Shown here: positions 6,220 through 43,173 of the stretch, piece by piece | Layout: each line of letters opens with the position of its first letter | Numbering within the stretch: the stretch's first letter is position 1 | NCBI GenBank assembly: GCA_037176885.1 | Contig: JAWWNJ010000073.1 | Coordinates: 124,001 to 188,000, forward strand | DNA length: 64,000 nucleotides | DNA from: Favolaschia claudopus | Taxonomy: Eukaryota > Basidiomycota > Agaricomycetes > Agaricales > Mycenaceae | Direction: 5' to 3' | Translations under genes and position numbers: made by a program | The notes under the pieces: generated by a model | What the model saw: the letters and a program-made list of their open reading frames with translations, nothing else | What the model was told of the DNA's origin: nothing | Database searches by the model: none

Positions 6220-7764
6220 ATGCCGTCCGACCACTCACTTCCAGACGAGCTCATCTCCGAAATCCTCACACCGGCTCTGAAGGTTAGCGAAGAGACGTTT
6301 TGTAACACCAATTCGGTCTCCCCATTTGCCAACTTTTCTGAATCGACTTCTGCGTATCTCTTGGTCTGCAAATCCTGGCTTCGTGTAGCGACCCCCTTGC
6401 TGTACAATGTTGTGGTCGTCCGCTCAAAGGCACAGGCGAAGGCTCTCAGCATCGCTTTGACCGGAAATAAGCAGCTGGGGCTTTTCATAAAGAAACTCCG
6501 GGTCGAGGGCGGATTCGGATCACCCATGCACGTTGTCTTGAAATACTCGCCAAATGTTTCCGATGTCTTCCTCTCATTCGATATTTTTTCTTCGGACAAT
6601 ACGAGCGGCCTATGCAAAGGTCTTCCCCTAATCAATCCCACCCGTCTAATTCTCTGGACTTCGAGTCGCAAAACATTGGAGAATAAGATGCTTTTGCAGC
6701 TGCTGCAGAGCCTGTCAGATGCGATAGCGAAATGGGACAATCTGGTGCGAACCCTCATCTCCAACCTTCGTGCTAATTGAAACATCATTCCCAGCGTATC
6801 TTCGACTGCCCTTTCGCATCAAATGGGCGCCTGGCTCAGAAGATCGTGCCACCTATGGTCAAAGCCAAACGCCTCGATACCCTGACAGTACAGAGTGTCT
6901 ACTGTATATCATGGGCATACTCTCAATTCAAGGATTGCCCTCTCAAAGCCATTCATATCAGACGTCCTGTATCCATGGCTGAACGGCAGTACAGTCTCTC
7001 CTCGGTGGATGCCGATCTCATGGCGCTCTTGAAATTCTCTGAGGCATCACCGCAAGTTTCTAACTCATTGATGTATTCCTGTTCTCATATGTTCAATGTA
7101 TTTGGCACAGGGACGTTTGGGATTCACCTGCAGAGCCGCCTGAGCCTAAGCTTCCGCTAATCACTCCATCTCTTGATCCATCCTTCGTTCCGCTAAACAC
7201 GGCCCCGAACGCGGTGAAGGAACACATTTGGACTCGTGTCATAGATTTTGCAATGTTAGTTGCAGCGGATCGCATTCGGTCTGCATCCAGCGACGAAGTT
7301 GCGCCTCAGCTCGGGCTATTGTTGGTATCGAAACTCTTTTATGTACGCGCTTCCATGCACTGGTCGCCCTTTGCTGATATTTGTTTTCAGCGAGTGGGGC
7401 GTCCTCTCTTTCATAAACACATCACCTTTCGGACACCGGCTCAAACGAACAAATTCGCACATATACTTGCGCAGAGCCCCGTTATTGCGCAGTACGTGCG
7501 TAGCATCAGCCTCGAACACGCAATTTATTTTTACAATTCCGACGCCGTGCGAAACGGCCGTTCTTCGCTGACCTTTATCCTATCCCAAGCCTACGCTCTC
7601 GGCTGGTTTGGTGATTTGGCGAATGGCTCTGCCCCTTTAATTCATTGGGATGCTTTCGCAGCGATGGCTAAGTGCTCAGGTCACACCTTGCGCGAATGCT
7701 CGGTCGACATTCGGATGGAGAAGGGTGTCCATTCGGCCTCTATCTTCGACAATCTGACCGCTGT
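6220..7764 (+). pseudogene. F-box family protein, 5' half, cut by the 35-kb element
   Basis: Exons 6220-6744, 6795-7072 and 7111-7764 encode the N-terminal two thirds of an F-box protein typical of large agaricomycete expansions. The F-box-like start is LPDELISEIL, followed by YLLVCKSWLRVATPLLYNVV and the family block GLCKGLPLINPTRL. F-box proteins recruit substrates to SCF ubiquitin ligases through Skp1 (family knowledge); the target is unknown. The intron 6745-6794 is canonical; the proposed 7073-7110 intron is only 38 bp and less certain. The frame runs intact to GCT-GT at 7764, where the terminal repeat of the large element begins, and stops five codons later. The other half is at 43174-44045 in matching phase, so this allele is disrupted rather than decayed. 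Confidence 0.85.
7762..7764. repeat. 3-bp target-site duplication (TGT), left copy
   Basis: TGT precedes the left TIR and TGT follows the right TIR at 43171-43173. Keeping one copy gives ...GCTGTACGTG..., which restores the F-box reading frame. Confidence 0.75.
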
Positions 7765-8265
7765 CACTCCGCAAAATTGAAACTTACTGTCTAACCAGTA
7801 TACTTTGCAGTAAACAATGTATACAGTTTAGCCAGAAAGCAATCCAGAAAGTAATGTATTCTGTAGAACAGAAAACCTACCTGTAAGCAAAGCTATCTGT
7901 AAAAGATTCTGTTAATCAGTAAATAAAGCTTTCGGCGCCGCCAGTAAGTGATCCAGTAAGTACTATATTCTGGATCACTTTCAGCATCCCAGTAAACAAT
8001 AAGAACTGGGGTGCCGAAAGTGATCCAGAATACAATAGAAACTGGACCGCTTTCTGTGCACCAGTAAGTAATGCTTTCTGGCGCACAGAAAGCGGTCCAG
8101 TAAACAATAGTTACGGGCCGCACAGAAAGCGCACCGGTAAGCTATTGTTTCTGGCTCCGCAGAAAGCGGTCCAGTAAGCAGTGATTTCTGGCCGTGCTGC
8201 AGCACGCCGGCAGCACGACTGCAGCACGTCTGCCGCACGCCGGCCGCACGCACTATCAAAATATA
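7765..8265 (+). repeat. left terminal inverted repeat of the 35.4-kb element
   Basis: Matches the reverse complement of 42670-43170 from CACTCC to CTATCAAAATATA with only a few differences. It is built of short alternating words (CAGTAA, CAGAAAG, CGCTTTCTG) that pair internally. One strong hairpin runs from GGATCACTTTC at about 7972 to GAAAGTGATCC at about 8028. Another is CCGCTTTCTGTGC...GCACAGAAAGCGG at about 8048-8096. The inner end (8191-8251) is a run of GCAGCAC/GCCGCAC words including GTGCTGCAGCAC. Confidence 0.9.
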
Positions 8266-11200
8266 TAAAATTTTTGGGAAAAAGGCTCTGAGTCGTAGGG
8301 TAATTTACAGCAAGGATATCGTAAGAACAGAGTATGTGATTTGAAGTCTACACCCCAAACAAAGATATTGTCGAAAAGAATCTCACTTTATTCGTGATAA
8401 CAGCATGAGGCCGATCGCCGACAAACCAGATGACTTCAAAACAACGTCCAAATGCCTACACCTCCTCCAACTATACCTCCACCATTGTTGTCTTGCGGTT
8501 CATCTTCACCTCCAGACTCGCTGGGCGAAGCAGTCGTCCAGTTCTGGCTGTCGTTGCGAGGGTGTATTTCCCGCATCAGAGGTGTCAAAGAAGAGGATGT
8601 CGGGGGCGTAGATGCAGACCACCGCAGACATATTCTCACCCACATCTCTCCGGAAATGACCAACCCTATCCGTGCCCACCACCACCACCACCATCAGCGA
8701 CGAAGCCGGCGCGCTCCTGCCTCTTTCCCCGTCCTGCCACCACTGCCAAAGCTACTGATTTTCGTCGTCGTCCCAACACCGTCACGGATTGCGGCCATGC
8801 ACAGGCGGCAATGCGACGTTGAACGCAGACAGCGGCGAGCGATGCTTGATTCCGAGGCGCGGTACAATACCGCCTCCACCATGCTCCGAGTCTTTGTCCA
8901 TATCTTCGGCTCGGTCCTCCACCGCTCCTCGAGCGTCCCCAAGGCCGACCCCACCTACACCCGCGCCGTCCTCGTTGTATGAACAAACACTAGCGAGTAC
9001 GATACTGCCGCCTTACATCGCCGCCGAATCGCCCGCCAGCACGCTAACCCGATAAGTGTACTAGTTGGCGTCGAATGTAACGTCAGCTCGAGTACGCTTG
9101 AGGTAATATAGAGGACAACGCTCGACAAGCGTCGATGGAAGATTTTGCAGTTTGCGGTGGTAGAGGAGAAGGCGGTTGGTAGAGGTTTGGGAGAGGGAAG
9201 GAGCGCCGGTGTCATCGTGGAAGTGAGTTTCTTCTGAGTATCAGCCGATACTGGAGACGGCGTTTACTTGACAAGGTGCAGCTCTACCCTCTTCCCATTC
9301 CGATCCCCCTTCTCCTCACCACCCGTCACCACCCTCAACCTATCGCGGAAAGAATCTCTTTCTACCGCCCGTATCCTCGCTCATTGACTTCGCCGCTCAA
9401 AGGTCACGCTGATGAGACGGGCGCCGGCGCCTCTCATCGCAAGCGGAGACGGGAAATGCACCAGTGCTATCTTTCCCATCTCTACGTCGACCGTTAAGCC
9501 CCGCACAGTCGGCAAACGCAACGTCAACGCCGGCTTTGCCTCCAGCGCAATCGTCTTGCTCCTCCTCCCGTCCACCACCACCACCCGTAAACCCATCTCG
9601 TGCATATTCGGGGTGACCGGGATGGAGAGGCAGAGGGAGGAGCTTTACGCGACCCTGTCGTCGGTGGGGATGACGTGGATGCGGTAGTGGCAGACGGGGG
9701 TGGGCGGAGGTGGGCGGGGGCGATGGCGGGCACGGAGGCGGAGGAAGAAGAGGGTGACTATGAGGAGGGATGGAAGTGGTGGGGCCGAACGAAGGAGAGG
9801 GTGAAGATGAGGAGGGATCGGTGATGTTGGAGGAGTGGGGTTTGAAAGGACGCGAGAGGCGTTTGGCTAGGAGGATAGGTCAGTATCGGCGGAGAAGGGT
9901 GTAGAGGAAGGAGACGGGCATGAAGAGATAGGAAGTAAGGCATCGTAATAGAGATTGCCACTCACCAGCAAATACAGTGGATGACTCCTCCAATCACGAA
10001 CGAAGACATTCTCCCCTTCTCCCTCTCCCTCCACGTCACCACCTCCTGAAACGTTGCGACGGGAATCCGACCGCTGGCATCACTCCCGAGCGCCTCCCTC
10101 ACCTCCCCTTCTGCCCGTTTCGTTGTCGTCGAAACCGATCTCTTATGCAATGCAACTCGCTTTCGCTTTCCGCACTGCACACCAACGCTCCAGCTCACGT
10201 ACTCAGAAAAGCGGGAGAACTAGATGCGTGAGAGGTAGACGCAGGCGAAAGCGACGACAACGGCGTGGAAGACATGCGGGGTGTCAAGCGCGAGATCTCG
10301 GAATTGGCGTACGATGGGCTGTTCCACGAGGGCCGTGAGTTGAAAGATAGCATGCGAGCCGACCAGATGGTGCGGGAGTGCTGGCCGCCCCAGCAACGAG
10401 ACGAAGGAAGGGAGAACGCGGTCGGGTTCGCCGTCTGCTGCCCAGCGTGCGGGGGAGTACTTGGGAAAGTACGCCGTGGAGGATGAAGGGGTGGTAATGT
10501 AAGCCGCGGAAGGAGGAGTTGTTTTGAACGAGTTGGAAGATGCCGGCGTGGCTACAGGGAAGAGGAGAACAGCGGGAAGAAGGCAAAAGTGGGTTTCACG
10601 CGGTGCGTCAGAGTGAAACAAGCCATGCGGAGCGGAGGCGGGTGCTGCGCGTGGCCGGCGTGGATGACGAAGGAAAAAACTGGGGCAGGGTAGTTTCCCG
10701 TCGAGGAGGCGCGGGTCGAGGCTGCTTAGTTGTGTAGGCTGGCTTGAGGTGTCGAAGACGTAGTGTTGACGACTGCGCACATGGACAATCAAGGCGGCGG
10801 GTGTCTGTGCGGCAAGGTCGGATGAATGAAGCACTGAGAGCGACGCGGCGTGGCGCACTCGCTCCGGCAGCTTCAGCAGCCAGAAAGTGTTTCTCAACGT
10901 TTCCGTGGCGGTCGTCGTGGCGCACGCTTCGTGGACTCGCAACGGATGCCTTGGGCGGCGAGCGGACATGGAGGAGGCGGGGCGATGAGTCGAAGATACG
11001 GCAGGCGGTACGTTCCTGAAAGTCAAGCAGACAATCGTGTTGCTTGGCTAGCGGCCGGATGAGACGAATGTCAAAGGAACGAGAGAAGCAGATGACTTAC
11101 GGCGGGCGGACAGAGCGTAAGCCACAACACCATATCGAAGCTGCAGCGGGGGTGCGAGATATACGGGTCAGCATGACGGAACGGACGCGATGCTCAAGAC

Positions 11201-11569
11201 AAGGTGTATTTGCCGGTGAGGTGGCGTCTTCGACGCTGAAGGAGAAAGAGAAGAGGCGCTTGCCCTGGGGCGAGGTAAGCGATACGACGGGCAGTGTTTG
11301 AGCGTGAATGTGTCGTCGGTGTTGAGTACGGTGTGAGGTGACGGGAAGGACTGGATTGCGGGAGGGAAGGCGTCGTCATTGTCAAGCAAGACCGCGATCA
11401 CTAATTTCGGCCGATAAATCCGTGCGGCTGCACGGACCAGAACCCACCTGACCGCCACCACACTTTTGTCTCCTGCGTCCTTCTGCCTCTGCCTCTTCGA
11501 CTTGGGGGTAGAGGGCCGCCGCTTCGCGCAGCAAAACTCGTACTTATGTACGGAACTTCGGTCCGACAA
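8266..11569 (-). other. gene-like sequence, copy A (unrecognised, degraded or captured)
   Basis: GC-rich, Pro/Ser/Arg-rich frames on both strands without a clean gene model. The most convincing coding-like signal is on the minus strand, 11026-10220, containing KLPERVRHAASLSVLHSSDL and LLGRPALPHHLVGSHAIFQL. Sequence at complement 11403-11431, 10841-10874, 10811-10830 and 10701-10721 recurs in the same order on the plus strand at 20141-20169, 20399-20430, 20476-20500 and 24648-24664 (copy B). Two related copies suggest a once-real gene carried or captured by the element. I do not recognise the protein. Region 8400-8960 holds only short proline-rich frames. Confidence 0.4.
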
Positions 11570-17578: not shown

Positions 17579-18364
17579 ATAGGTGATTGGGAACCGCGTC
17601 TGCGTTGCAGCAGGGTGCGGCCCGACTCAGACTACTTAGGTGTGTAATGGTCGTGCGGCCGCAAGCTGTTCTGCGACAATAAAGGACGACGCTGAAGATT
17701 ACGCATCGCCCTCGTGCTGCAGCACAATTCTGAGCCATCCATGACAGTTGCGTACAATGATTGCTGGAACTGTCGATGAACTGATTTACTCTACAGATTC
17801 AAGGATGGTCAGAAATCATAAATATAGAACGTGAAGTTAATCGGAAACTACGCAAAATAGCAACGGGGCGAGTGCTGCAGCACTGAACACCAGTGGAAAC
17901 TGAGTTTCTCTTTCGCTTTGTTTGATTTAGAGTTTGAATTGAAGCCAAGATGCAGGTAACAGCTGGATCGGAATGATTCACTGACTTGTATACTTCAACT
18001 TTTCTAGGAGTGAGTTGAAGCTCTCGCGCAGAACCTGATTTTCGCTGAAGTCTGTTCTGTATTTGCATGTCATCCCAGCGGTAGCGTGTGTATACTCGAG
18101 CAATAATAATATCGCACAGCTTAAGCCGTAAAATATGGGAGATGAAATAATTCGAAGGGTTTATCAGCGAGTAATAAGTATCATACTGATTGTGGCATCG
18201 CGTGAAATCGTCCGATTTCGTGCTGCGGACGCAGGTCTATTCTTTTCGCTCAAGGTCGAAGAGGTGAATTCACACCGCACCTCCGTCAATGTGGTCTTCT
18301 CCTCGTCGCTCGACATTCAATTCCATGCCCTTTTGCCTAGTCTTCACAGGTCACTGTCTGCGGG

Positions 18365-18460
18365 TAACTTGGAGTCGGTCTGCATCTGCTGTGCTGCAGC
18401 ACGGAGGCAGCACTGCAAACTGTGCTGCTGCACTGATGGCCTGTTCTTTCTTATTGTTCG
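18365..18460 (+). repeat. dispersed CTGCAGCAC module, copy 1
   Basis: Contains in order GAGTCGGTCTGCA, GTGCTGCAGCACGGA, GCAAACTGTGCTGCTGCAC and TGTTCTTTCTTATTG. The same ordered words recur in inverted form at 18885-18995 and in weaker form near 26330-26420, 26515-26610 and 27690-27770. Confidence 0.55.
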
Positions 18461-18884
18461 GTCTGATGCTTACGTCCAATTCAAGTTGTCGCGTTCGAAT
18501 TTCCGTCAAGTACTACGTTGAATCCAACAATAAGATTAGATGTTGCAGCCTGCCTCACAGTGCTGCAGCACAACAGATCGTCTGCAGACGCCCGTACTGG
18601 AACCCGATTTTTCAGATAAAACGTGCTGCCGTCACGGTACACTTTTGAAATGGGTTCAATACGCTGACATCGGTGTAGTTGAGATGCTAATAATGTGAAC
18701 GAGTCGAGCTGCCGGCGGCCGCTTTTAATGATTGAAAATCTTCCGTGTAAGATTCAGCTGGAGGAACTCATGTATCCTTTCCTATGGTTCGGTTTGGGTT
18801 CAATTTTACATAACAGACGAGATTCGCGAGGCCGTTTGCGAAGGCATCAGATAAACTTTGTCTGACGAAAGCAGTAGGTAGTGG

Positions 18885-18995
18885 ACAATAAGAAAGAACA
18901 AAAAGCCCGTGCAGCAGCACAGTTTGCGCTGCCGCATCCGTACTGCAGCACGACAGCACGACAGATTTGCAGACCGACTCGGAGTCAGACTTGAG
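18885..18995 (-). repeat. dispersed CTGCAGCAC module, copy 2 (inverted)
   Basis: On the minus strand it reads GAGTCGGTCTGCAAATCTG, GTGCTGCAGTACGGATGCGG, GCAAACTGTGCTGCTGCAC and TGTTCTTTCTTATTG, collinear with copy 1 about 500 bp away. Confidence 0.55.
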
Positions 18996-20100
18996 TAGCC
19001 GCACTCTTCTGCGTACTTCATTCCGCACTTCGGGGTATACCCGCTCTCACTGACTCAACGTACACCCTACCATGCAAGCTCGTCAGTTCAACAGTATCTT
19101 TACTGTCTTCAAAATGAGACGAGGTCAGTCTCGTTCCGCAACCAAAACAATATCTTGTCTGGGTACCTTCGTTAAAATCCCCCTGTGTTCAGCGCTCTTG
19201 GCGAACATCACGAAATAAGATCTCGAGACCGATCACCAGAGATAGTGCGTTTGGACTCGTTGGAGGAGGGGAATGACTCGCTGCAATAAATCCGAGGTTT
19301 GAATGAGTAAAGAGGCTCACCATCAGCTTGTGTTACAAACCCGCACAGAGATGCGCAGAGCGGTGAAGGCCCGCATGATTTCTCAATCTGATCCCCAATC
19401 TTCAGTCTCTGTTCTGAACAAGGCTGATGAGCTCATGAGGAGAATACTGATGAGATAGCGAGAAACTCACTCTGTTGATGAGTCTCAGGCGTGTGTGGAA
19501 TAGGTTGAATGTGTACATTCAGGTTGGTTGCTGGACGGAACTGATAATTGAACTTTGTTCAACTCAAACTTGAGACGAAAGAGTTACATACCTGGAGTAT
19601 CTGAATCGGCCGTGTATCACGTTAGACAAACGAATAAATTGGAAATGAATGGATGAAAATTCAGGTTTTTGTAAGAATAAGATGAGTAGTAAAATCCTTT
19701 TGGGTAATGACTTTGTTATCGCTCATTGGGGGCGTCGTACTGATCCTACTAACAAGCCACTGCGTTAGTTGCGACATTCAAGGTCAAGAATTCTGAACCC
19801 CGATCGGCTAGAAGCTTTAAATTTGTGCTTGGACTTCGAGAAGTGAGATAATAAATTCACGAGCGGCTGCCGAACCAGAAAGCCAGGGCTGCCTGTCATT
19901 GCCGCTGCCAATGCTGAGCAGCGGAATTTTAGAGTCCTCAGAGAGTCGGAGGGATCCAGGCGGACTTGGAGAATTGTCGGAGAGGTTGCCATCATTAGAC
20001 TCATTCGGGATCAAGTACCTCGACACAGCGAATGGTACAAGTATTATCAATGCGTCCAGGAGTCGAGTCAGTCGACGAAAGAAGGAGACAAAGTTAGGAC

Positions 20101-20513
20101 AAAGCAGCTTGGGTGGCAGTTCCGTTACGACAACATTGGTCCGTGCGGCCGCACGGATATATCGGCCGATACAGGCCGCTGCTTCCCCTTTGCCTCAGCT
20201 GCACTTCGCACACCGTCTCACCGACAGTGCTTTTGCTCCTGTTTCCCCGTCACCTGCACCACGTCGTCTCTACGGTGGCAACTCACTCGTTTGCCCTCAC
20301 AGAGTACGGCTATTTGAGGTAAATCTGACGGCTATCGACTGCTTGATCTCTATTTTCCTCATCCGACACCGACTGACACCGAGCAGCGAGTTTGCGATGA
20401 AGCTGCCCGAGGGATTGCGCCACGCCGCGTAGGGTCATCCAGGTGCGTATCTTCGTTTCTTGTCTCTCCCAGCGCTCATTCTCATCAGACCTTGCAACAC
20501 ACGGATGTCACTG
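20101..20513 (+). other. gene-like sequence copy B, left part, cut by the MULE
   Basis: Collinear with copy A (complement of 8266-11569). Shared words are GTCCGTGCGGCCGCACGGAT followed by TATCGGCCGA at 20141-20169, AAGCTGCCCGAG...TGCGCCACGCCGCGT at 20399-20430, and CTCATTCTCATCAGACCTTGC at 20476. It stops at the 9-bp duplication of the Mutator-like element and resumes at 24560. Confidence 0.5.
20505..20513. repeat. 9-bp target-site duplication ATGTCACTG, left copy
   Basis: ATGTCACTG lies directly before the left TIR, and an identical ATGTCACTG directly follows the right TIR at 24560-24568. Nine base pairs is the hallmark duplication length of Mutator-like elements. Confidence 0.93.
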
Positions 20514-20632
20514 ACTAAACGCTATCCCCCCAACGCTGGTGCCAGGCACGTGGCCTCGGATCTCGGGCATCAAAGATGCATCACACGCTGTCAGAGGACT
20601 TCTTCGCAATCTACAAGTCCGTTTTCGAGCGC
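20514..20632 (+). repeat. MULE left TIR
   Basis: Identical by eye over 119 bp to the reverse complement of 24441-24559. Similarity continues weakly for another 20-30 bp inward. Confidence 0.92.
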
Positions 20633-20779
20633 AACGCGTCGCCGACGCAGTCCCGCCCCGCCGCCACTGTAGCTTCACGCAATATTCAAGTAATTATAAT
20701 GGCTGGTATCTAACAGAGAAATGTCTCAGCATTTAAGATCTGCAAAGTAGAGCGTGACTTGTACATGTCACCGCAAGCG

Positions 20780-20820
20780 ATGACGTAGTTGGATTTCAGC
20801 CTCAAATCCAACTACGTCAT
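20780..20820. terminator. hairpin beyond the 3' end of the MULE transposase
   Basis: Perfect 17-bp arms ATGACGTAGTTGGATTT and AAATCCAACTACGTCAT around a 7-base loop, 85 bp past the transposase stop codon. It could act in 3'-end formation or be a protein-binding palindrome; the terminator label is only a guess. Confidence 0.35.
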
Positions 20821-20904
20821 GGGTCGAATTTCTTCGTACTCAGGCTCGTGGTCTTGAAAGCAAAGGAATGTAATATTAATGCACAGGAATGTAAGGGAAA
20901 TAAT

Positions 20905-23900
20905 CTATTCAGGTGGAACATTCTCATCACCTTTGTACAAACCCATAGTGTTGCGGGTATATATTTGTGACTGCTTATCTCCCTTGCGTGCCCAAGTTGT
21001 TTCACGACGGCGGCTTGTTTTACTGAAGCGCCGTACATCGCCAACCATTTTTGAGACGTCGGCACCGAGTTTTCTGTCCGAAACTGACCGAAGCCACAGT
21101 TTTGCCTTTTTAGGATTGCTGGCTTGCTCTTCCAGGACGGCGGCGGCTGCGCGGAAGTCTCGAGCGAGCTGTTTGGCATATTCAACATGGCCAGCCTCGA
21201 CCTCCTGAAAGTTTATGGAGAAATTAATTGAAGTTGAACTAATTGATTAGAGGGATAAACCGGGATTTCCCTTACCTCGTCACTTTCTTCATCAACACGG
21301 ATCGGCGACGATGCGCCAGAGGATGATGAAATCTCGATGATGCTGCTGGAATCATCCTCGAAGTCGCTTCGCTTTCGCTTTGATCTCCGACTCAAGCCTG
21401 AAGTGGAGCTAGATGGAGTTCCGGAAACTGACTGTGCGGGTTTATGGTAAGTATCGGAACCAAGAGGATTGTCGCCGTCTGACACAGTGCCATCCAGCGA
21501 GTCGAGAGCATGAAGCTCAGTGCCATCCTTTGGCTTCAGAAGGGGATGGGAATAAAATGGCTGGACTCGGCGCCGGATCACGGTCTGAAAGAATTCAGGT
21601 GCGGGTGGATGAAATGCCTGCACAAGGTGTTTGCAGAGAAGGTATGGACTGTACTTCTGCTGGCCACATGTGCATGTCCACAATGAAGGGTCGATTTTGT
21701 ACTCCTGAGTTCCGAGTGGTCGAAGGCTTAGCTTTTTCCAGTTGGCCTTGAAGCATTTTTGCCACGGAGTAAGCGGGTTTGAGCGGCCGGCACGAAAGTC
21801 ACGCTCGAAAATCTGCATTTTTGCGGAGAATGTTGGGATGAGGTCGGTGATGAGCAGGTAGAAAACCTGGTCGAGTCTCGGGTGGACAAAGTCGTGAAGA
21901 GTTCGGTGCTTGAGATTGCGCCACAAGTTTTCCACAGTCATTGTTGTGCGCCAGCGACCAATGAAATCTCCGGAAGTAGAGCGGGCCCAGAGCTTCCATT
22001 TCGCAGGGCAGTACCAGGCACTCCACATATATCCCCAGACCTCCCGAAGCCCGCGCTGAAAGCAGAAGAGATACATGTCACGAACGGCATCATCGCGGAT
22101 TTGCTTGGATGTTCGGGACATTCCACGTCGATCCGGCAGAAGTGGATGCTCGCAAAAATGCCGAATAAAGAGCCGCAGAATTTGGCGACGGTGGGGGGCT
22201 GGACAGAATATGTAACCCGGGACGACGGAAAATACTGTCTCGTCCCCGGGCTCCAACCAAGATGGAGCAGCGTCCAGTCGGTCAGGTACGTCCAGATCTG
22301 CATCTGAGGCATCCAAGTCTTCGTCCTCATCGTCAACAAGAGACTCCACGAACTGTTCAAGCGCAGCTTGAGAGTCGTCCTCGTTGCCGATATTACGTCC
22401 ATTGAGATTGATCACAATTCGGGGGCGGGCGGGGGCAGAGGCAACAGGCCGACTGTTAAACATTACTCGAATTGTTGGAATAGCCTCTTGTGCGACCTCT
22501 AGATTAGCCTGAATGACTTCAGAATCGGAGTTCAACATCATTGTACAAAAAAAGACTTACCGACTCGCGCTGAATGGCCGTCATTTGCTTGATCGGAACA
22601 AAGTCACGGTCAATCCAATCGTACTCGCGAAAAGCTTCGTCTGGGTTGTAATACGCTGGTTGCCGTCCCACAACTGCAAGACGGCCCTTGATTGCGCGTA
22701 TTGCATGCCAGAAACACAACTGGTAGTTGACATCTTCTGGGAGCTCCGCAATTAATGCGTTGATTTCGGAGATGTCCTTGTCGCTGAGGCATTGCATGAT
22801 TTCCATCCCCCAGATCCGTACAAGATGGCGGACAATCGAGCGGAGATAATTCTCCTTCTCGCCTTCCTCTGGATTGTGGGACTTCAAAAATAAAAATCCA
22901 AGAGGAATCCCCGAGCCAAAAACCTCGCCCAAGATGGTGAAACATTCATAGCCAGCCTTGGTTGTGTTAACTGCGAGGCAGAGTCAGTACAAAAGGAGAA
23001 CAAAAAACATCGAAAGTTGCTCACATGTCGAGTCTATGCCGATCTCGCGAATTTTCCCCGCCCATTTGCGCAGAAAGGTCGGAATAGCGAACGCAAAAGC
23101 CTGGAACCCAGCACTGACACCCCCATTTGGAAGCTGGATGCGTTCGACCTCGAACTTGCTGCCTTGCTTACTAAATTCATCCAAAAGGACGTAGGCCGAC
23201 TTGAGTTCATCTTCATGACGCTTCCACTGATCTTGTTGCGCTTTAACCCAGATATTGTACACCGACTTGCGCAGAAAAGTCGGTTTTGGGTATTTTGCGA
23301 GTATCTCCTTCCAAAGCTGGTGGATAGAAATAAATTAAACTTGATAATCAAGGTGTAATGTGTCAAACTTACCTGGCTGGTGCGCAGATGCACATTCTTT
23401 AAGATGAAGTCCTTCACATCAGCCGGCACTTCCACAGAAATATACTTCTGATGGCAGTCCTCGTGCCGAATGCGCACAAACCACTCGTGAGTATCGGGGG
23501 AGCCCCAGATCGTGAGCCAGCCTTCACACTCATAGGCCGCCATCTTCCCCTTGTCACGCTGCTTTGATTTATCTTCAACCTTGATAGATTTACGTTGCTG
23601 ACTGGCGGATTGGGCACAATTGTAGTCATATCGCGTTGTGTCACTGTTGGCGAAGGGACGCTTCCCATGAAAGCTTCGAAAATAAGTTGAGGTTATTAAA
23701 AATATTTGAATAAAGGAGACGCACTGGAAACGATACCCGATACATTCTTGTACCTGTTCTGCAATCAAATTTGCAATGTCCTTCGGGGACTCGTCCTCCA
23801 GCACCAGTCCAGAGACATCCACATATGCTGTCAAATTGTGGATGTCACCGGCCTCTCGGAGCGCCTTAAAAAAATCCTCCGCCGATACGGCAGATGCACC

Positions 23901-24167
23901 AATGAAGGCAGATGCATCAACCGAGTTGTCTGCACGGTCCTTCTTTTTCTCCTTGCCGGCAGCAGCCGCAGAGTTGGCCTTCTGTTGTTGTTTCTTCTCC
24001 AAACAACTGCGGCAAGTTTTGGTAATCTCTAGACCATTGGCGCCGAAAATGGCCTTCCAGTTCTCCGGATTGATTTCAAGCTCACGGCCGCAATTTCCTT
24101 TGCAACGCGCAAGAAGCGTAGGTTTACTGTAAGCTGGCCAATCGTAAGTATTGTTATACCACAACAA
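20905..24167 (-). CDS. Mutator-like transposase with SWIM zinc finger
   Basis: Catalyses cut-and-paste movement of the element at its TIRs. Minus-strand exons: about 24167-23725, 23673-23373, 23316-23025, 22970-22561, 22508-21276, 21204-20905, with introns of 51-71 bp. N-terminal Cys-rich module (CKGNC ... CRSC), then the MULE DDE domain with GIDST (first Asp), GIPLGFLFLKS, LSDKDISEINAL (second Asp) and QLCFWHAIRAIKGRL. A SWIM finger follows, CTCGQQKYSPYLLCKHLV (CxC...CxH), then an acidic and Ser-rich linker and a basic tail ending VPPE. These are features of the MULE family (PF10551 plus SWIM). I see no stop or frameshift between exons. The start is uncertain: the first-exon frame begins with TTG at 24167, and a short further 5' exon up to about 24210 is possible. 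Confidence 0.87.
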
Positions 24168-24234
24168 GGCTCAAAAGAAGCATACTCGACGGCATGAGAT
24201 GCCACGAATGTCTGAGTGTGGGCGAAGGAAGACA

Positions 24235-24297
24235 GACGCGTCAAGTCACAGATCATTTGTGACTTGACGCGTCGCAGATGTGACTCAACGCGTTGAC
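24235..24297. promoter_or_regulatory. promoter-side hairpin and repeat of the MULE
   Basis: Arms GACGCGTCAAGTCACA (24235-24250) and TGTGACTTGACGCGTC (24258-24273) form a 16-bp hairpin with a 7-base loop. A third, degenerate half (ATGTGACTCAACGCGTTGAC) follows at 24278. It lies just upstream of the transposase start inside the TIR, so it may be a transposase or regulator binding palindrome. Confidence 0.5.
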
Positions 24298-29853: not shown

Positions 29854-30238
29854 TGTAAGGGCAACCTTTAGGACCCGAGATGTCTCGAGGGTCTAGCGAG
29901 GGAGAATCCAAAGTTAATTAAAGATGCTACTAGGAATACATTACAGCGCACCTAGCGAGGGAGAATCCAAAGAGAAGAAAGGCTAAGGATTCCCACGCTA
30001 GGTGTGGCAAACATATACTAACTAATTCCCACAAGGCCGGGTCAACCGGTAATAGTCCCTGGCCCGATCACATGCTAAGTCCCACCTTGATGACGTAGTT
30101 GGACTGGGATCTTGTGTACCCAAAAATAGAACTCTGTCATAGTTTGATGGAGCTCCACAGGAATGATGTAATGGGACTTGGGCAGAAGTGCCCAAGTCCC
30201 TTTGCGTCATGCTGCACAGAACAGGGGTTCCCCTGACA
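29854..30238 (-). repeat. 3' LTR of the Ty3/gypsy element
   Basis: Starts TGTAAGGG and ends CCCTGACA on the plus strand; matches 35468-35852 except T/C in CCGG(T/C)AATAG and A/G in GCTGC(A/G)CAG. CTAAG target copy precedes it. The Pol stop codon (30022-30024) lies inside this LTR. Confidence 0.93.
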
Positions 30239-33200
30239 TCACCCCCCCCTTGGAATGCGGCGCCTCGACGCATAGATCGCACCTGAGCTGGAGTCGACGA
30301 GCGGTCACGGAAGGGAAGGGAATCGAAGGCAGCAACAGCAATGGAGCGAGGTTTGGAAGGGTATTTGCGGTAGAAAGCGGCAACAGCGTCCGGGGCAAAG
30401 ACATTAGAGTGCTTCACCCATTGATCATGGGACGGGTCATAACCCTTCCAGCGAACAAAGTACCATAGACTCCCATAGCGGATCTTGGCATCCAATATCT
30501 CCTCGACCTCCCATTGCTTGTCGCCAGGAACGTCAAGGACTGGTGGCGGCTCTTCGTGTCTGGGGCGAGTGGGGAATGGATCGGCTTCCACAAGCTGAAG
30601 TTTCACGACAGGGAAGACAGGGTGGAGGGCAGAGTACCGGGGTGGCAGCTCCAGTTTGAAGGCACCATTACCGACGACCTTCAGAACCTTGAAGGGGCCG
30701 ATACGCCGGTGGGAGAATTTCACCGAAGGGCGGGTGGTGCGGATATCTGAAGCATCAACCCACACCCGGTCACCAACCTTGATGTCTGGAGCTGGCGTCC
30801 GCCGGCGGTCATAGTACTGCTTGTACTCTGCTTTGGCCTTGACAAGTGCTGCCTTCGCCTCGGAAACCCCTGACGCAATCCGATCGTGGAACTCGTTCAC
30901 AGCCTCCAACCTAGAACGTGCAGCGTGGGGCTCAAAGCCCATCCGTGGAAGGCGACCAGTGTCCGTCATGAACGGTACCTGCTGCGTGGAGGAGTGCATG
31001 TGGTTGTTGTACGCAAACTCCGCTGCAGGTAGCAGCTCATCCCAGTCGTCCTGCTTGTAATTGGTGAAGAGCCGGACGTACTGCTCAAGTTCCTGGTTAA
31101 CGCGCTCCGTTTGGCCATCGGTCTGCGGGTGGTAGGCCGTAGAAGTGGCTGGGGTGACCCCAACGAGGCGCCAAAGCTCGCGCGTGAACTCTGCAATGAA
31201 CTGGGTGCCACGATCCGAGATGTACTTCTCTGGCAGGCCATGGTGGCGCCAGACGTTCCGGTAGTACAGCCGAGCAGCACCAACCGCGTCAATGGTGGTG
31301 TGACACTCCATGAAGTGCGCTCTCTTCCCAAGGGCACAGACGACGACCATGACAGCATCGTATCCATGGGCCTCGGGAAGCTCGACGATAAAGTCGACTG
31401 ACACGGTGTGCCAGCGCTCTTCTGGGATCTCTGTGGGGTGGAGCTCACCAATCGGCAGTTGACGAAGCGCCTTGGTGCGGCAGCACAGGTCACAAGTCGC
31501 GACATACCGACCGACATGGCGCGACAGCTGGGGCCACCAGTAGTTCCGAGACACGAGCTCCAGGGTCTTGAAACGACCGGCATGGCCTGCAACGCGCGTG
31601 TCATGGTGCTGCTCCAAGATGCGTCGGCGGAGGTCCTTGTCTCGGGGGACGACAATCTTCCCCCGGAAGTAAAGGAGTCCACCTTCAATACGCCATTCCG
31701 AAGACCGGGCAGACCGCACACCTCGGGCCTTGAGGAGTTCCTTCGCAGTCAGGGCAATGGGCTCTTCAAGGTCGGGGTCTCCAGCAAGCGCATCACGAAT
31801 GTCGCGCAGGAGGGGAGCCTCAGGGCCAGCAATAACCAGGGCCTCGGTGGCCCGAACGTGGAACAGCTCGGGTCGAAGCAGGGTAACGTCCTGGTTATCG
31901 TCCTGCACTCCATGGTCCGGTCTCCGAGAAAGCGCGTCGGGGCGACCCATGAGGCGACCCGGTTGGTGGTGCAGCGAGAAGTCGAAACGGGAGAGGTAGA
32001 GAGACCACCGAGCTTGGCGACGATTGAGCTTCTGGGCCTTCCGGAAATATTCCAGGTTTTTGTGGTCCGTCCAGATCTCAACCAGGTGCTGCGCGCCCTC
32101 AAGGAAGTGGCGCCACTCCTCAAGGGCTCGCACGATTGCAAGCATCTCCTTGTCGTGAATCTCGTAATTCCGCTGCACCTCGTTCAGGCTTTTGGAGTAG
32201 AACGCAACCGGATGCCACTTGCCATCGTCACCCTGCTGGGAGAGGACGGCACCGGTGGCATAGTCAGAGCTGTCAGCCTCGAGCCGGTACGGGCGTTCGG
32301 GGTTCGGGAGAACCAGAACGGGGTCCCGAGTCACCCGCCGCTTGAGCTCGTCAAAGGCAGCTTGCTCTTCAGGCCCCCAGGTCCAGGCAATGCCCTTCTT
32401 GGTGCGTCTGAAGAGGGCTTGAGCGACGTCTGAGAAGCCCGCAATGAACCGGCGGTAGAAGTTTGTGAAGCCAAGGAACTGCTGCACATCCTTCTTATTC
32501 TCAGGCGCTGGCCAAGCTGCCACTCCTGCAACCTTTACAGGGTCCATCTCGACGTGGTTGTGGGAGATAATCACGCCAAGGTACTCAATGGAGGTCCGCT
32601 CAAACTCACACTTCTCGGCTCGAAGGTAAAGCTTGTTTGCGCGAAGCCTCCGCAGGACCTCTCGGACGATCTCTCGATGCCGACGGATGTCTGAGTGGGC
32701 AATGAGGATATCGTCGAGGTAGACCATGACGTCGCCAGAGAGGATAAGATCCTGGAAGATGTCGTTCATCATGGTCTGGAAGGTTGCAGGGGAGTTGGTC
32801 AGACCGAAGTACATGACCAGCGGCTCAAACAGTCCCCGGTTGGTCCGGAACGCTGCCTTCCACTCGTCGCCTTCACGGATTCGAACGTTGTTAAAGCCCC
32901 ATCGGACATCGAGCTTCGTGAAGTACCGGGCTCCCCTGAGTCGGTTGATGAGGTCGTTGATTAAGGGGAGCGGGTAACGATTCTTCACGGTCATAGCATT
33001 TAAAGCTCGATAGTCCTGTACGAACCGAAGTCCGCCGTCCTTCTTCTTGACAAAGAAGACGGGTGAGGCCATAGGTGATTTCGACGGTCGAATCCGGCCA
33101 GTGCCAAGTCCCTCCTCGATGAAGGCATCAAGTTCCTTCTGTTCGAGAGGTGAGATTGGGTAGACCTTGCAGTTCGTGGGTTTAGAGTCCGGCACGAGCT

Positions 33201-34200
33201 CAATGGCATGGTCCCAGGATCGGCGTTCAGGCAGCGAGTCAAAGGACTCCTTGTTGAAAACATCGTCAAACTCTCGGGCCCATTCGGGAACGTCCGAGCG
33301 CGCCGGGGCTGAGTTTTTGGCGTATGCCTCAGCCAGGCGCTGGGAGACGGTGCTTCCAGCACGGATATCCTCAGAAGGCAGGAACTGGGTGTAGAACACC
33401 CGGTCTCCCGGCTCAAGGGGGTCATCCACTTCATCCACATCATCCTCTTCATCATCCTCGTAGTCCGGGAACAGCTCTGGCAGGTCATCGTATTCATCTT
33501 CGCCTAAGTCTATGGCACAGATGGACGGAAGGGGACCAAGTCGGAGCTGCCGGAGGATCTCAGCGGCCAGGCGGGACTCTCGGCGCGCGGCGCGAGCCTC
33601 CAGGCGAACCTCGGTGCGGCACGTAGAGCACTCGCTGGGGCATCTGCTCATCTTGACCTCTCGGGTGTCCCAGTCGATCTCCGGGTTATGCTTCCGGAGC
33701 CAGGAGTAGCCGAGGATGAGCTTCTGCTTCCCAAGACGGGTAACAGCGAGCTGCATGCGCTCAGAGTGACCACGATACTGCAGCACGACGTCAGCCACCT
33801 CGCGGATCGCACCAGCCTCATTTGGCGAGCCATCCACATTGAAAACTGGAATGGGCTGTGCAAGGCGCCGGAGGGGGAGGCCAGACTTAGCTGCGAACTC
33901 AGAGTCAATGAAGTCTGAGGTGGCACCACAGTCAACGAGACCTTCGAGGGAAAGCTTGGTGGCGTCCTGGACTGCCTGAATCTCAAGGGGGAGATGCAGG
34001 GAGTTGGCACCGGGTGCAGCAGCAACAGTATAGCGCTGAGGAAGTCTACGTTCCCAAGGCTTTCGCCGGATGCGTGGGGAACGGAGGGGAGCAGGGGGTA
34101 CGTCTTTCATTTCGGCAGGTTCAACAGATGTAACATTGGCAGACTCATCATACAAACATGCGAAACGATTAGGAGACGCGATCGAGGGCGTACCGCTCAC
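30022..34200 (-). CDS. Pol polyprotein of chromodomain Ty3/gypsy element
   Basis: About 1,390 codons. Aspartic protease near residues 85-100 ([12 protein letters not shown]), reverse transcriptase with [11 protein letters not shown] near 490-505, and RNase H with [15 protein letters not shown] and TDHKNLEYF. The integrase has an HHCC finger (H..H ... CDLCCRTK), VDFIVELPE and the ISDRGTQF and [14 protein letters not shown] blocks (DDE). A C-terminal chromodomain ([20 protein letters not shown]) near 1240-1290 targets integration to marked chromatin in this family. The frame overlaps the Gag stop by four bases (GTGA) in the -1 frame, so Pol is probably made by frameshift or re-initiation. The final ~70 codons read into the 3' LTR. 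No stop or frameshift seen, so it looks functional. Confidence 0.93.
30239..30251 (-). other. polypurine tract of the Ty3/gypsy element
   Basis: On the element strand AAGGGGGGGGTGA abuts the 3' LTR, the expected site for plus-strand DNA priming. Confidence 0.7.
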
Positions 34201-35324
34201 TCGTCGCGTGGGAGAAAACCCTGCTCTTCCTCGGCGGCTACAGACTCCGGCTCAGGGAGCGAGTCGGTGGTGGCAACCCGAGCCACCAGTTCGGAGAGGA
34301 GCTCGGACCCAAGCTGACGAATGACCTCGTCAAGGATATCAGCGGCTCGGACGTCAGCTGGGGTGGGGCAATCCCGGGCCAGGTGTGGACCGCCGCATCG
34401 GTAGCAGCCACGGGGAGGTCCTCTCCCGGAGCGTGTGCGATCAACGTCCATGGGGACTACCTGCGGAGGAGCAGGAGCTGGCATGGCCCGAGGAGGAGGC
34501 GCAGGGACAACAGGGAAGACACCTGCTGGACGTGAGCGAGCGGCTGGCGGAGCTGAGGGGGCTTTCGGGAGAAGCCCAGCAGCACGAGCCCGCACGTGCG
34601 ATTCGTACTGGCGGTACGCTCGGGTCCGCCAAGCCATGTAGTCGCGGAGGTCTGGGGGGTCGCTAGACGAGGTGATGGCCGCATTGATGGCAGGGTCAAG
34701 GCCAGAGCGGAACTTGGTGACCTTGACCAACGCGTCAGCAAACCCAGCAAGGTCGAAGAGGTCTTCAAAGTCATCAGTGTACTTGAAGACATCCCGGGAG
34801 CCCATATAGTATGCCCTAGACTCGAGTTTGTGTAGGGCGTGGTCCTGCTCGTTCTCCTCGACAAAGCGTGAGCAGAACTCCTTGGTGAAGGCGTCCCAGG
34901 TGAGGAAGGGGAAAGGGGTTTTGATAGACATGCGCTCAGCCCATTTTTGCGCAGAGTCTTTGGACATAAAGGACATGGTGAAACGCACTGCCTTTTCCTC
35001 AGACATCTCACCACCTTCGACAAACGCCTCCGGAACCAGTCGGATGTAAGTCCGAGCTGAGTGAAGGAAGGCCCGGCCAGCCGAGCGGTCGCCGTCAAAG
35101 ACGAAAGGGGGGTTCGGTCGAAGGACCGTTTTTGCTGCCGGGGTGAGGTTGGCAAAGAGTCCTGGACTCTCAGCCGGAGGCTCTGGAGGAGCGGCAGGGG
35201 TCGGAGCAGTAGTAGTGGAAGGATTGGCAGCAGTTTGAAAAAGCTCGACCAGACGGTCAACAGTTCCCTCGAGCCTATCCATCCGCTCGGCGGCGGCTGC
35301 AGCAGCGGCGGCAGAGTCGGTCAT
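34197..35324 (-). CDS. Gag protein of chromodomain Ty3/gypsy element
   Basis: Capsid/nucleocapsid precursor. The first in-frame ATG (35324) opens [20 protein letters not shown], a short coiled-coil-like start; the frame itself is open further upstream into the 5' LTR without an ATG. The central region ([20 protein letters not shown] ... [13 protein letters not shown]) is the retrotransposon gag fold. The C-terminal zinc knuckle [13 protein letters not shown] is CCHC and binds RNA. Gag ends GFLPRDE at a TGA that overlaps the start of the Pol frame. Confidence 0.88.
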
Positions 35325-35467
35325 GGTGGGTTCTAGAGAGGGGGAGGAGGGGGCAAGATTCGCGGTTTGCGCGTCCGAGACAGCAGAGGAGGAGTCCGAC
35401 GAAGCGTCTGAAAAATCGCCAAAGCGCGCAATCTTGACCAGTTGATCCCTTGGAGCCTTTCTTCTGC

Positions 35468-35852
35468 TGTAAGGGCAACCTTTAGGACCCGAGATGTCTC
35501 GAGGGTCTAGCGAGGGAGAATCCAAAGTTAATTAAAGATGCTACTAGGAATACATTACAGCGCACCTAGCGAGGGAGAATCCAAAGAGAAGAAAGGCTAA
35601 GGATTCCCACGCTAGGTGTGGCAAACATATACTAACTAATTCCCACAAGGCCGGGTCAACCGGCAATAGTCCCTGGCCCGATCACATGCTAAGTCCCACC
35701 TTGATGACGTAGTTGGACTGGGATCTTGTGTACCCAAAAATAGAACTCTGTCATAGTTTGATGGAGCTCCACAGGAATGATGTAATGGGACTTGGGCAGA
35801 AGTGCCCAAGTCCCTTTGCGTCATGCTGCGCAGAACAGGGGTTCCCCTGACA
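35468..35852 (-). repeat. 5' LTR of the Ty3/gypsy element
   Basis: 385 bp, near-identical partner of 29854-30238 and followed by the second CTAAG at 35853-35857. The element is transcribed leftward from here. I see no conventional tRNA-complementary TGG primer site next to it, which would fit a self-priming element, but that is inference. Confidence 0.93.
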
Positions 35853-35857
35853 CTAAG

Positions 35858-38800
35858 GAGGGTCAAAGTGAGCTCCGAGCTGTTGACCGTAAAACCCATC
35901 ACAGGAGAAAGGCATTATAATAATAGCCTACTGCAGTACTATGGATCTGTTCCATAACAGAACCCTCAGAAGAGTGACGAAGAGTCAAGTACTTGTGTAC
36001 TACGGACTTAGACGAGGATGTAGAAGGCGCCGCGGTGGACATCAGAGTCAAATGACAGATGCCGCGGGCTGCCGACTATAAATAGACGGCTGGAACAGCG
36101 GAAAGGGATCTCATACAGGAGATGCCGGTGCCAGGATCAAAAGGCAGAGTTATGGCAAGACATGAGGTCTTTGACAGGAGTGATGATGTTGTGATGCTGA
36201 AGCCGAACAAGTACGGCAACTTCATTAGAAATCTATTTCTATATGGGAGTCAGCACGGATGACTTGGTGGCTTGATTAATTGGACAACAGACGGGTCCGT
36301 GAAATCGCGAGTGAATTGGAATGAACCAAGAATAGTCTCAGGAGTTAGTAGAGGCGTTGATGGCACCACCGGAAGGGTTGCCGCCAGTGACGGATTGACG
36401 GGATCACCAATGATGGCGTTCCGCGGGCTTCCGTAATTCAGTGATTCAACCGTGAGAGTCATAAATGCTGACTTTCTACCGTTGGATCGACAAGCCAAGA
36501 GGCTGCCGAAGGTCTTCCGGGACACCCAAATACCAATATACCATCTCTCTACTCAATTGGATCGACATTGCTTACTCTGTACTATTTATGTGATGTATTT
36601 CTTGGCATTAGTATAAAAGGACCTGTATTTCTTGTTGAGCTGGAGGACATCGCGCTCAGTCTATTGGACAGCGTTGGTGAACTCAGGCAGCAACGTAGAG
36701 GCACATATAAAGATATTGTCTACTTGTTTGTCTTAATAGAAACTGTGTTGAAGTTCAAGTCAAGTGTGAATCCTAAGCATTCGTTTCAAGAGCGTTCACC
36801 CGCGGAGGCTTCGCCTTTGAGTAGCTTTGTCGTGGTACTAGTGTGCTAGGAACTGCCTGCCTCTATAACCCGTGGACTGTCTATTTCGATTGTGAGGATA
36901 CGTGTGCTCAAGAGTGAACTAGTATCTCCCTGAGTCTGAAGAGAGTGGAACTGTCCATCTGCTAAAGCATTGCGTTGGAACTGCTGGCGTATAACCTGAA
37001 GAGATCTGATTAGTCCTCTTCTGAAAGACTTGTGCTATATAAAGGAGTGTCAAACGTTCCTGGAACTTGGAGGTTCAGGTCTATAGTACAACTGGTGCTA
37101 TAAGAATTGTACAGTCTGCCGCGGAAACTGTCTGTGGTCATACTTTCAATCTCGCCCTGATATTCAACTTTGTTGGTATCTTGTATCCTACTGTTTTATA
37201 GTTTCCTATTCTTAGGAAAGGTCCGCGGACGGAATCACTTCCTTCTACGGTGTGTGAGGGCGTGTTTTGTGCAAGGTTCTGCTTGCAAGTCGACTTATAT
37301 CCTCGTCACTGAGACATCTGGATTTCGGATCGAACCCCACGAACTCTTCGAGAGACATTTGAGTGTATCTTGTTGAGATATTTGTGTTGTAGTGTTGTGT
37401 GTGTTGGTTGAGTGTGTTATATATATATTTTTGGTGGTAGATTCTCTGCTGCGCTATATTTAGCACTTCTGTCGATATATCCAAGTGTCAGCGTTACAGC
37501 GGACATATGTAATTTTATCTTATGCTTCGGCTTTTACTATTCCGCACCTATGATGTACTTATATTCTTGTTGTAATGCTAAATCCCCTTGCGCGTTTGCA
37601 AGGGATTTCCCCGCTCTTTCGTTTGGCCGCCCGTTCTGCGGCAGCCATTTCAACATCAACAACGTATTTGTGCTGGACCGGCGAGAGAAACAAATTGTTG
37701 AAGATGGTGAGCCTGCAAAAGCGTACAAATCAGCTTGCATGAAAGATGTTTATTGTAGGTTGGAAACTCACATGGCTTGGAAAATCTCTGTTTGAGCTCC
37801 CGGTCTATCTGGTGCGTCCAAGCAGCAAACCTGAGAGTAGTTGAAAACGGAAGAGTCGACTCACCGAGACTCCCAGTCTCCCGGGAGTCTCAAGCCACAT
37901 AGGTTGAGCAGAATAATTAAGAGATGAGCTTGTTCAATCAACAACTCCGAGTCTCAATAGTAGTTACCGCGGACCTCAATGAAAGAATCCATGCAGTCTA
38001 GTACACAACTTGAAGCACCTACTTATTAGTATCCCAGATCTGATAGAGTTGGAGGAAGAGCTCATTCCAACTCCGCCAGAGCTCAATAGGGCTCTTTAAA
38101 ATTGTGAACCCCTGATATTGACTAGTCCCTCATAGACAGACACTCTATATAAGATTGTCTCGAACCTCACGACAACCTCACGAGATAGTATCAGTGCCCT
38201 CTGAGTCTTTCATTCCAGCCGAGAGTCCAGCGAATCAAATCCGTCAAGAATGCCATTGAGATACATTGAAAGAGGTGTCGGGCAGAATAGAATGATGCTT
38301 TGAAAGAGACAAGATTGAAAACGTCGAGAAAAATCAAGTCTCGTTCGGGAAAGCAGAGTCTGCGATCCGCTATCACATCAGCTGATGATCACTGATGAAT
38401 TGATAGCAGTGTGCACATCAAATCAGGCAAAACGAACTTGAACTTGAAGTTCATGCCCTATTGCTGAACTTGGTGCAACAAAGATCTTCATCCTCTCCAA
38501 GACGCTGAACTGCCGGTTTCTAACTTCAGATGAAAGCTCGAATATTTAATGAAAAATGAGGTCATATAAAAGCCATTTGTATTCTGGATGTAACGGTAAT
38601 AGTCAGACCGAAAACACAAGGTCGGATATGTCTCTGATACCTTGGATAAAAAAACGACGACCCAACCTGAAGATCGAGGTCGAGGTGCTAGAGCGAACGA
38701 CTGCAGGTGCGGATGGTGAAGGACTTATGCACTGTCCTGGTGGGAGGGACGTCAGAAACGGTGATTGACGGCCGTGAGCAAATCAGTGGCAGACACAGCC

Positions 38801-41800: not shown

Positions 41801-42669
41801 TCGTGAAGCCCTATCATCTCGGCCGTATCAAAGCTTCCTTGGACGGACGATGAAGACGCGAACGGCGTTTATCCTTCTGGCGGCGATGTTGGGCGGTAGC
41901 ATCGTTAGCGTTGGATTGCACAATTTGAATGAGGATGGTGTGCGTGCAGGTGGTGTTAGGGGTTGGGGATGCAAGTCGCGAGGGGTCGTGGAGGCGAAGC
42001 GAGGAAAATTGAAGGCGTCGTACAGCCTTCGTCGTCGTCGATGGTGGTGGTCATGGGTCCGGATAGTGGGTATGGATAGGGTTGGTGGTGCATATGTTCG
42101 CCGGTGTCTACCTCTCCGCCTCCAGCATCCTCGTCTTTGACGGTGCCTACAAATCACTCTGAGCCGCCCGTCGGTGTATCTGCGCAAATGCCGTGTGTAC
42201 AGCAGGCGGTTCTCAGCGCAATAGGAAGCGGTCCGTCGACCACGCTGCGCAGCCTGTCCTCTGCATCCGCTATCCTTACTACGATGCCTCCGCCCGGATA
42301 TACCGCGGCCAGCAGCAATTCACTGTCTTGCCGCTCCTCTGCTCGCCGCAAATCTCCCCGACACCCCTCCATGCCAACCGTTCGTCACATCCGGAGGCTC
42401 GAGTCCTTCCGGCGTGATAGGCGAATCTGAGTAGCGCTTTGGATGCGGCCGTGGAATTGCTACGGTGCGGGGGAGGTGGGTGTATATGTGATTTATTGGT
42501 CATATTTCATCGGCTCGAGAGAAAAGAAAGTTTTCTTTCAACGATATCTTCGTTTGGTTCCAGATTTCGAACTTGATTATACCGTATCAATGCTATCCTA
42601 CCTGTATATCACTCTGCTACTCAGCATGAATCAATTCACGTCCCAGATTCTTTTTTTTTCCAAACTTGG
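35858..42669. other. remaining right part of the large element, no intact gene
   Basis: A promoter-like TATAAATAG lies at about 36077 in a GC-richer context, but no open frame follows. 36560-37460 is AT-rich with recurring GAACTG words. On the minus strand at about 40190-39900 a frame reads FGCWDDWLDTTPSLASSLLRI and LHLLTNVPTMLPF, resembling leucine-rich F-box family fragments. 40766-42430 has GC-rich Ser/Pro/Arg frames on both strands, like 8266-11569, without a clean model. I read these as captured or decayed gene pieces. Confidence 0.35.
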
Positions 42670-43170
42670 TATATTTTGATAGCGCGTGCGGCCGGCGTGC
42701 GGCAGACGTGCTGCAGTCGTGCTGCCGGCGTGCTGCAGCACGGCCAGAAATCACTGCTTACTGGACCGCTTTCTGCGGAGCCAGAAACAATAGCTTACCG
42801 GTGCGCTTTCTGTGCGGCCCGTAACTATTGTTTGCTGGACCGCTTTCTGTGCGCCAGAAAGCATTACTTACTGGTGCACAGAAAGCGGTCCAGTTTCTAT
42901 TGTATTCTGGATCACTTTCGGCACCCCAGTTCTTATTGTTTACTGGGATGCCGAAAGTGATCCAGAATACAGTACTTACTGGATCACTTACTGGCGGCGC
43001 CGAAAGCTTTATTTACTGATTAACAGAATCTTTTACAGATAGCTTTGCTTACAGGTAGGTTTTCTGTTCTACAGAATACATTACTTTCTGGATTGCTTTC
43101 TGGCTAAACTGTATACATTGTTTACTGCAAAGTATACTGGTTAGACAGTAAGTTTCAATTTTGCGGAGTG
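42670..43170 (-). repeat. right terminal inverted repeat of the 35.4-kb element
   Basis: Reverse complement of 7765-8265 with a few substitutions, for example TTTGCTGG here against TTTACTGG in the left copy. Ends TTTTGCGGAGTG, followed by the TGT target copy at 43171-43173. Confidence 0.9.
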
Positions 43171-43173
43171 TGT

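Follow-up and report, generated by a model that had tools for sequence, protein, structure and literature searches.

The window analysed here is the whole 64,000-nucleotide stretch of the Favolaschia claudopus genome (G000:C73:124001-188000), from an assembly of 264.6 Mb and 460 contigs. At window positions 7765-43170, an insertion of 35,406 bases splits an F-box-type gene. In all likelihood this insertion is a giant, non-autonomous element of the EnSpm/CACTA type, mobilized in trans by a related copy, for example that on contig C89. Long inverted ends, a target-site duplication and an empty allele were observed for the window copy. Across the assembly these ends form eight giant and 25 short pairs, and an open tnp2-type frame is present in the C89 copy.

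Ends, target site and empty allele

A sequence-only reading of the window had described 501-bp inverted copies starting with CACTCC and flanked by TGT on both sides, and both points were borne out. The left terminal inverted repeat (7765-8265, plus strand) starts with CACTCC and the right one (42670-43170, minus strand) finishes with GGAGTG. Alignment of the two gave 497 identical positions out of 501, with four mismatches and no gap. Taken as arms of 509 nucleotides (7765-8273 and 42662-43170), they are 99% alike, and the likeness stops near position 501-508. The TGT duplications were read directly at 7762-7764 and 43171-43173.

Removal of the element and one TGT joins the flanks into a sequence that matches C32:1174201-1174508 at 99% over 308 of 308 bases. 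This contig of the same assembly carries the predicted GCTGTACGTG junction exactly, with a single TGT: the letters read ..GACCGCTGTACGTGTCC.. at this site. The empty site that had been predicted was thus present in the same assembly. The next-best matches to the joined flanks are paralogs at 78-82%. In addition, C32 is colinear with the left flank (92.2% in a 7,423-bp alignment) and with the right flank (91.6% in a 2,392-bp alignment, falling to 87% farther right). From these sequences, the C32 site is probably the allele of the other nucleus, a duplicated segment being the alternative. Both nuclei of a dikaryon are very likely represented in the assembly. For the published genome of strain CIRM-BRFM 2984, the available part of the article gives a size of 265 Mb and 86.8% duplicated BUSCO genes (PMC10905254).

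The 5' part of the interrupted gene lies at 6220-7764 and the 3' part at 43174-43948, both on the plus strand; the former was assigned from its open frame and relatives, the latter from the open frame across the join. After removal of the element and one TGT, the exon formed by 7064-7764 and 43174-43342 is open, with 290 codons in the window and 299 codons in C32. A 698-codon F-box frame had been claimed for the rejoined gene. The full model, with its intron 2, was not reproduced. Since the joined exon reads through without a stop in C73 as well as in C32, the two gene halves have probably had too little time to decay since the insertion. The four closest relatives of the gene are all F. claudopus F-box proteins of 613-695 amino acids, and its own F-box-like Pfam match is sub-threshold (15.3 bits versus a cut-off of 24.3).

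The left end contains an array of CAGWAA and TTWCTG motifs (7784-8190, plus strand). The 501-bp end has 14 copies of the former and 5 of the latter, that is, 19 motifs in both orientations; in 1000 dinucleotide shuffles, the two motifs together reached a mean of 0.9 and a maximum of 5. Tandem periods of 37 and 11 bp were also found in the left end. Proteins of plant CACTA elements bind such subterminal motif arrays, and the array is predicted from its sequence to consist of transposase-binding repeats.

The family of ends and the copy on C89

When the 501-bp end was used as a query, 26 near-full matches were found in the assembly. The inner part of the end, for which all 27 candidates were scored, gave the same 26 places and a fragment on C66. 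A genome-wide search for the terminal pattern CACWCCGCAAAATTGAAA, in which one mismatch was allowed, gave 89 matches, 45 and 44 on the two strands; one of them (C53) begins with CGC. The reversed pattern, used as a control in the same search, had no match. The 89 matches form 25 short pairs (237-1,687 bp) and seven giant pairs, and 25 matches are without a partner. An eighth giant pair is that of C57: its left end lies outside the terminal pattern and its right end is among the unpaired matches. The giant spans are 21.4 kb (C8), 22.3 kb (C46), 24.6 kb (C57), 27.4 kb (C154), 27.5 kb (C81), 27.6 kb (C89), 35.4 kb (C73) and 78.2 kb (C115). Genome-wide, end pairs are either 237-1,687 bp or 21.4-78.2 kb apart, with none between.

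Perfect 3-bp duplications flank seven of the eight giants (TGT in C73, AGA in C89, TGT in C81, ACA in C8, AAA in C154, ATT in C57 and TTC in C115) and ten of the 11 short copies for which both flanks were read. At no fewer than eight places the matched ends enclose 21 to 78 kb, and these stretches are likely giant mobile elements. The giant pair with the least alike ends is G000:C46:365540-387849 (440 of 501 positions matching), which perhaps recombined from two elements.

Several features of EnSpm elements are seen in this family. The termini are of the CAC..GTG type in all eight giant pairs (CACTCC or CACACC at one side, GGAGTG or GGTGTG at the other), the 3-bp duplications have no fixed sequence, short motifs are arrayed subterminally in both orientations, and the C89 copy carries a candidate gene for a tnp2/CMCT DDE transposase. 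Four other groups were considered. Polinton/Maverick elements have 6-bp duplications and a type-B DNA polymerase, and Starships have a DUF3435 tyrosine recombinase at one end; the window element has 3-bp duplications, and no Pfam family was found at E 0.01 in its 57 open reading frames (ORFs) of at least 100 amino acids outside the two large nested elements. Plavaka elements begin and end with TGT..ACA or CATCA..TGATG, in the available part of the description (PMC12730594), and the ends of the window copy differ from both. PIF/Harbinger elements are described with TNA or ANT duplications in the passages available (PMC12477816), and the duplications of the giants (TGT, AGA, ACA, AAA, ATT, TTC) fit no TNA rule.

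The two ends of one element are closely alike in some copies. Among 17 ends compared, those of C73 are 99.2% and those of C89 100% mutually alike, whereas against any other end the likeness is at most 96.4%. The C154 ends are mutually closest by a slim margin; C81, C8, C46, C57 and C115 each have one or both ends nearer to an end of another copy. In the tree of ends, branch support is mostly weak, and two of 13 inner branches are well supported, the C73 pair among these. The C89 arms are identical for 950 bases and then about 92% alike, declining inward; this step suggests that a conversion tract recently overwrote the termini. Gene conversion or gap repair seems to keep the two ends of one element similar.

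The search with the 501-bp end thus yielded other copies, including C89 with its candidate transposase. The sequence-only reading had noted no matching transposase: this holds for the window copy, but not for the family. The C89 copy (27.6 kb, AGA duplication) has an empty counterpart that is 100% identical over 400 bp, and its candidate gene (C89:84.6-88.1 kb) is open and has two exons, with an intron of 53 bp between them. The tnp2 match of this gene itself is below the Pfam cut-off. PF02992 is found in relatives of the encoded protein, one of the 45 relatives having the Plavaka domain PF18759 beside it, and the predicted fold of one relative (P0007) resembles RAG1. The genome contains at least 107 related transposase matches (the best 102 of 184 candidates were scored).

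It should be mentioned that two other loci, G000:C109:214000-231000 and G000:C3:1553500-1570500 (L048-L051), are 95% alike and share with C89 a region of about 9 kb that includes the transposase gene. The 17 kb examined for each contains none of the ends of this family, and these loci perhaps represent a sister family with other ends. Each arm of C89 also contains an ORF with a T5orf172 domain, which we take to be of the GIY-YIG type (L009:1670-2449, minus strand, and L011:7178-7930, plus strand; best E 2e-5; 85% alike). This giant element therefore seems, from its ORFs, to carry a nuclease-like gene at both ends.

Interior of the window copy and its surroundings

The interior (8274-42661) consists of a family backbone and nested elements, as judged from comparison with other copies and from repeat subtraction. 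Recognised nested repeats total 16,452 bp and leave 18,954 bp of backbone; this is a rough subtraction, the repeat limits being approximate. Several kb of the interior are common to C154, in reverse orientation and mostly at 77-91%, and parts are shared with C247, C8, C81, C213, C11, C57 and C46. Three backbone segments, all on the plus strand, were followed across copies: 8682-11486, common to C247 (80-92%), C154 (mainly 84-88%) and partly to C213, C81 and C8; 14257-15528, common to C154, C247, C8 and C81; and 17579-19077, common to C154 (86%), in which the differences are without codon periodicity. Across 39 interior alignments no codon periodicity was found in the differences, two values exceeding 5.99, which is near chance. 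Because codon periodicity, Pfam families in the ORFs and any match to the C89 interior are all absent, the backbone looks non-coding and drifting.

The nested elements are of several kinds. A 4.0-kb element at 20514-24559 (minus strand) has inverted ends of about 147 bp (96%) and a 9-bp duplication, ATGTCACTG, at 20505-20513 and 24560-24568. It is considered to be MULE-like; its two long ORFs have no Pfam match. A Ty3-type long terminal repeat (LTR) retrotransposon with a chromodomain (chromovirus; 29854-35852, minus strand) has 385-bp LTRs with two mismatches and the 5-bp duplication CTAAG. A high-copy repeat at 35860-37501 is presumably nested as well: 42 other matches at 92-98% are listed, the best 40 of 612 candidates having been scored. 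Smaller repeats, found elsewhere in the genome, are also nested in the interior.

Large blocks were observed in other copies, too. The C57 copy (L024:3835-10000 and L025:1-2315) has 1.9-kb direct repeats (99.8%) around an ORF of 1,123 amino acids, which has no Pfam match and, by its motif, presumably encodes a Penelope-like reverse transcriptase. The C81 copy (L012:6467-10000 and L013:1-6856) contains a nested 10.4-kb block with 2.0-kb direct repeats (99.8%); this block has about 1,030 codons in three ORFs, one of which resembles a TNP-like RNase H domain very weakly, below the cut-off. The C154 copy (L019:4894-10000 and L020:1-5672) contains a nested 10.8-kb block with 1.3-kb direct repeats (99.7%).

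Outside the element, a metallo-beta-lactamase-fold gene (Lactamase_B and BLACT_WH; 44510-45454) lies directly downstream of the interrupted gene and has a counterpart on C32. A second Ty3-type retrotransposon with a chromodomain is located at 53143-61637, and a 76-bp direct repeat, 93% alike at a spacing of 109 bp, at 83-267.

Mechanism, alternative explanations and meaning

In the proposed mechanism, a transposase from a relative such as C89 would bind the motif arrays in both 501-bp ends and synapse CAC..GTG ends that lie tens of kb apart. The block would then be excised and joined to a 3-bp staggered cut in the F-box-type exon. Because only the ends would be needed, the interior would be free to drift and to gather elements: it might decay, be replaced or swell. 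A wider version, which we regard as tentative and rather unlikely, is that the ends of about 500 bp alone matter: one transposase would move 0.2 to 78 kb, terminal gene conversion would keep the ends matched, and miniatures and giants would coexist without elements of intermediate size. The family would then be a basidiomycete counterpart, by scale, of Starships, with a RAG1-like DDE transposase.

Several observations weigh against the assignment to a CACTA-type element mobilized by a relative such as C89. The CACTA/CMC-type reading proposed from the sequence is supported, but the CACTA pentamer of the narrow plant sense is absent. Since the ends begin with CACTC or CACAC, the label used here is CACTA-type, not strict CACTA. 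Ten of the 26 near-full ends have no partner found, and neither C46 (TTT/GTC) nor the short copy on C31 has a matching duplication. The 974-residue C89 protein, scanned whole, gave no Pfam family at 0.01. The C89 interior shares nothing with the window element beyond the ends (blastn 1e-10, tblastx 1e-8). Because the interiors have nothing detected in common, it is the 96.4% identical ends by themselves that link C89 to the window copy as its supplier, and any of the more than 100 related transposase matches might be the supplier.

Growth in place is a real possibility, if somewhat short of an even one: an EnSpm element of about 17-25 kb, or smaller, would have entered the gene and grown to 35.4 kb, so that 35 kb never moved whole. 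Recognised nested repeats make up about 16.5 kb of the 35.4 kb, C154 has none of these repeats at the matching places (the MULE-like element included), and the chromovirus LTRs differ at only 2 of 385 positions. However, neither gene half has lost its open frame, which makes a recent insertion probable. The family as a whole shows giant spans, with eight such pairs and none of 1.7-21 kb. Furthermore, the perfect identity of the empty counterpart of C89 suggests that this copy probably moved at giant size. The claim of extreme size is to be qualified: the 35.4-kb span is real, but much of it is nested foreign repeat, and giant EnSpm elements are known outside fungi.

It is improbable that the ends are those of another DNA-transposon group that makes short duplications, for instance Plavaka (CMCT) or PIF/Harbinger, with the tnp2-type gene of C89 as an unrelated passenger. 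The many related transposase matches elsewhere, the C109 and C3 loci that share the gene region without the ends, and the one relative with PF18759 would fit such a passenger. The Plavaka ends differ from those of the family (PMC12730594, as far as its available text goes), though, the duplications fall outside the TNA rule, and no inner pair of ends was seen around the gene in C89.

Two separate short elements facing each other, as in a composite or macrotransposon, are barely conceivable even though short relatives with the same termini are common. Neither 501-bp unit has an inner inverted end or a duplication of its own, the one TGT duplication encloses all 35.4 kb, nothing of what it encloses is present in the empty allele, and the C73 ends resemble each other more than any of 15 other ends; convergent pairs also recur as eight giants. 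The independent insertions raised by the sequence-only reading were thus not found. That unrelated contigs were misjoined at repeats is scarcely credible even in a repeat-rich genome with this level of BUSCO duplication, since the assembly is from PacBio data (PMC10905254, available part), both flanks are colinear with the same contig, and misjoins would not produce exact 3-bp duplications in seven of eight giant pairs.

The window copy is best regarded, then, as a giant variant of the already known EnSpm type. Starships of Pezizomycotina likewise move tens of kb as a unit in fungi, by a tyrosine recombinase and without long inverted ends; in the mushroom family, by contrast, the inverted ends are long and a relative carries a gene for a DDE-type transposase. 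The known fungal EnSpm elements are similar to the present family: they end in 5'-CAC..GTG-3', duplicate 3 bp of target and encode a transposase of the CMCT clade that has C(2)C and H motifs; giant size or ends of about 500 bp are not reported in the available text, and the 57 ORFs of the window element have no Pfam-recognisable gene, TET/JBP included (Kojima 2025, PMC12730594). In the brown alga Ectocarpus, EnSpm elements reach 15.2 kb and KDZ elements 30.3 kb, with nested foreign elements and transposase-less families presumed to be moved in trans; the mushroom EnSpm-type pairs differ in being 21.4-78.2 kb apart and in having an open transposase-type gene in a sister copy with the same ends (PMC12477816, in the passages available). 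The soybean CACTA element Tgmt* (20.5 kb, autonomous-looking) is also a giant insertion in a gene, with a tnp2 transposase and subterminal repeats, whereas the window element is 35.4 kb and has no recognisable transposase (PMC2613891, in part). Enlarged En/Spm elements of the red alga Chondrus are 16-20 kb with 4-5 ORFs; the window backbone, unlike these, has no Pfam-recognisable gene (PMC6431247, in part). No giant EnSpm family in a fungus was found in the literature searched, and the family, with its sizes and homogenised ends, seems not to have been described there before.

If this interpretation is true, cut-and-paste movement of 20-80 kb by RAG1-like enzymes also occurs in fungi that are not Starship hosts. 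The family can be put to the test: its ends are defined, an enzyme has been proposed, one strain contains both filled and empty sites, and the size gap calls for an explanation. It bears on the maximum spacing at which ends are still paired by a DDE transposase and on the growth of Mycenaceae genomes to hundreds of megabases, and it might reveal the way in which very large DNA segments are mobilized in fungi.
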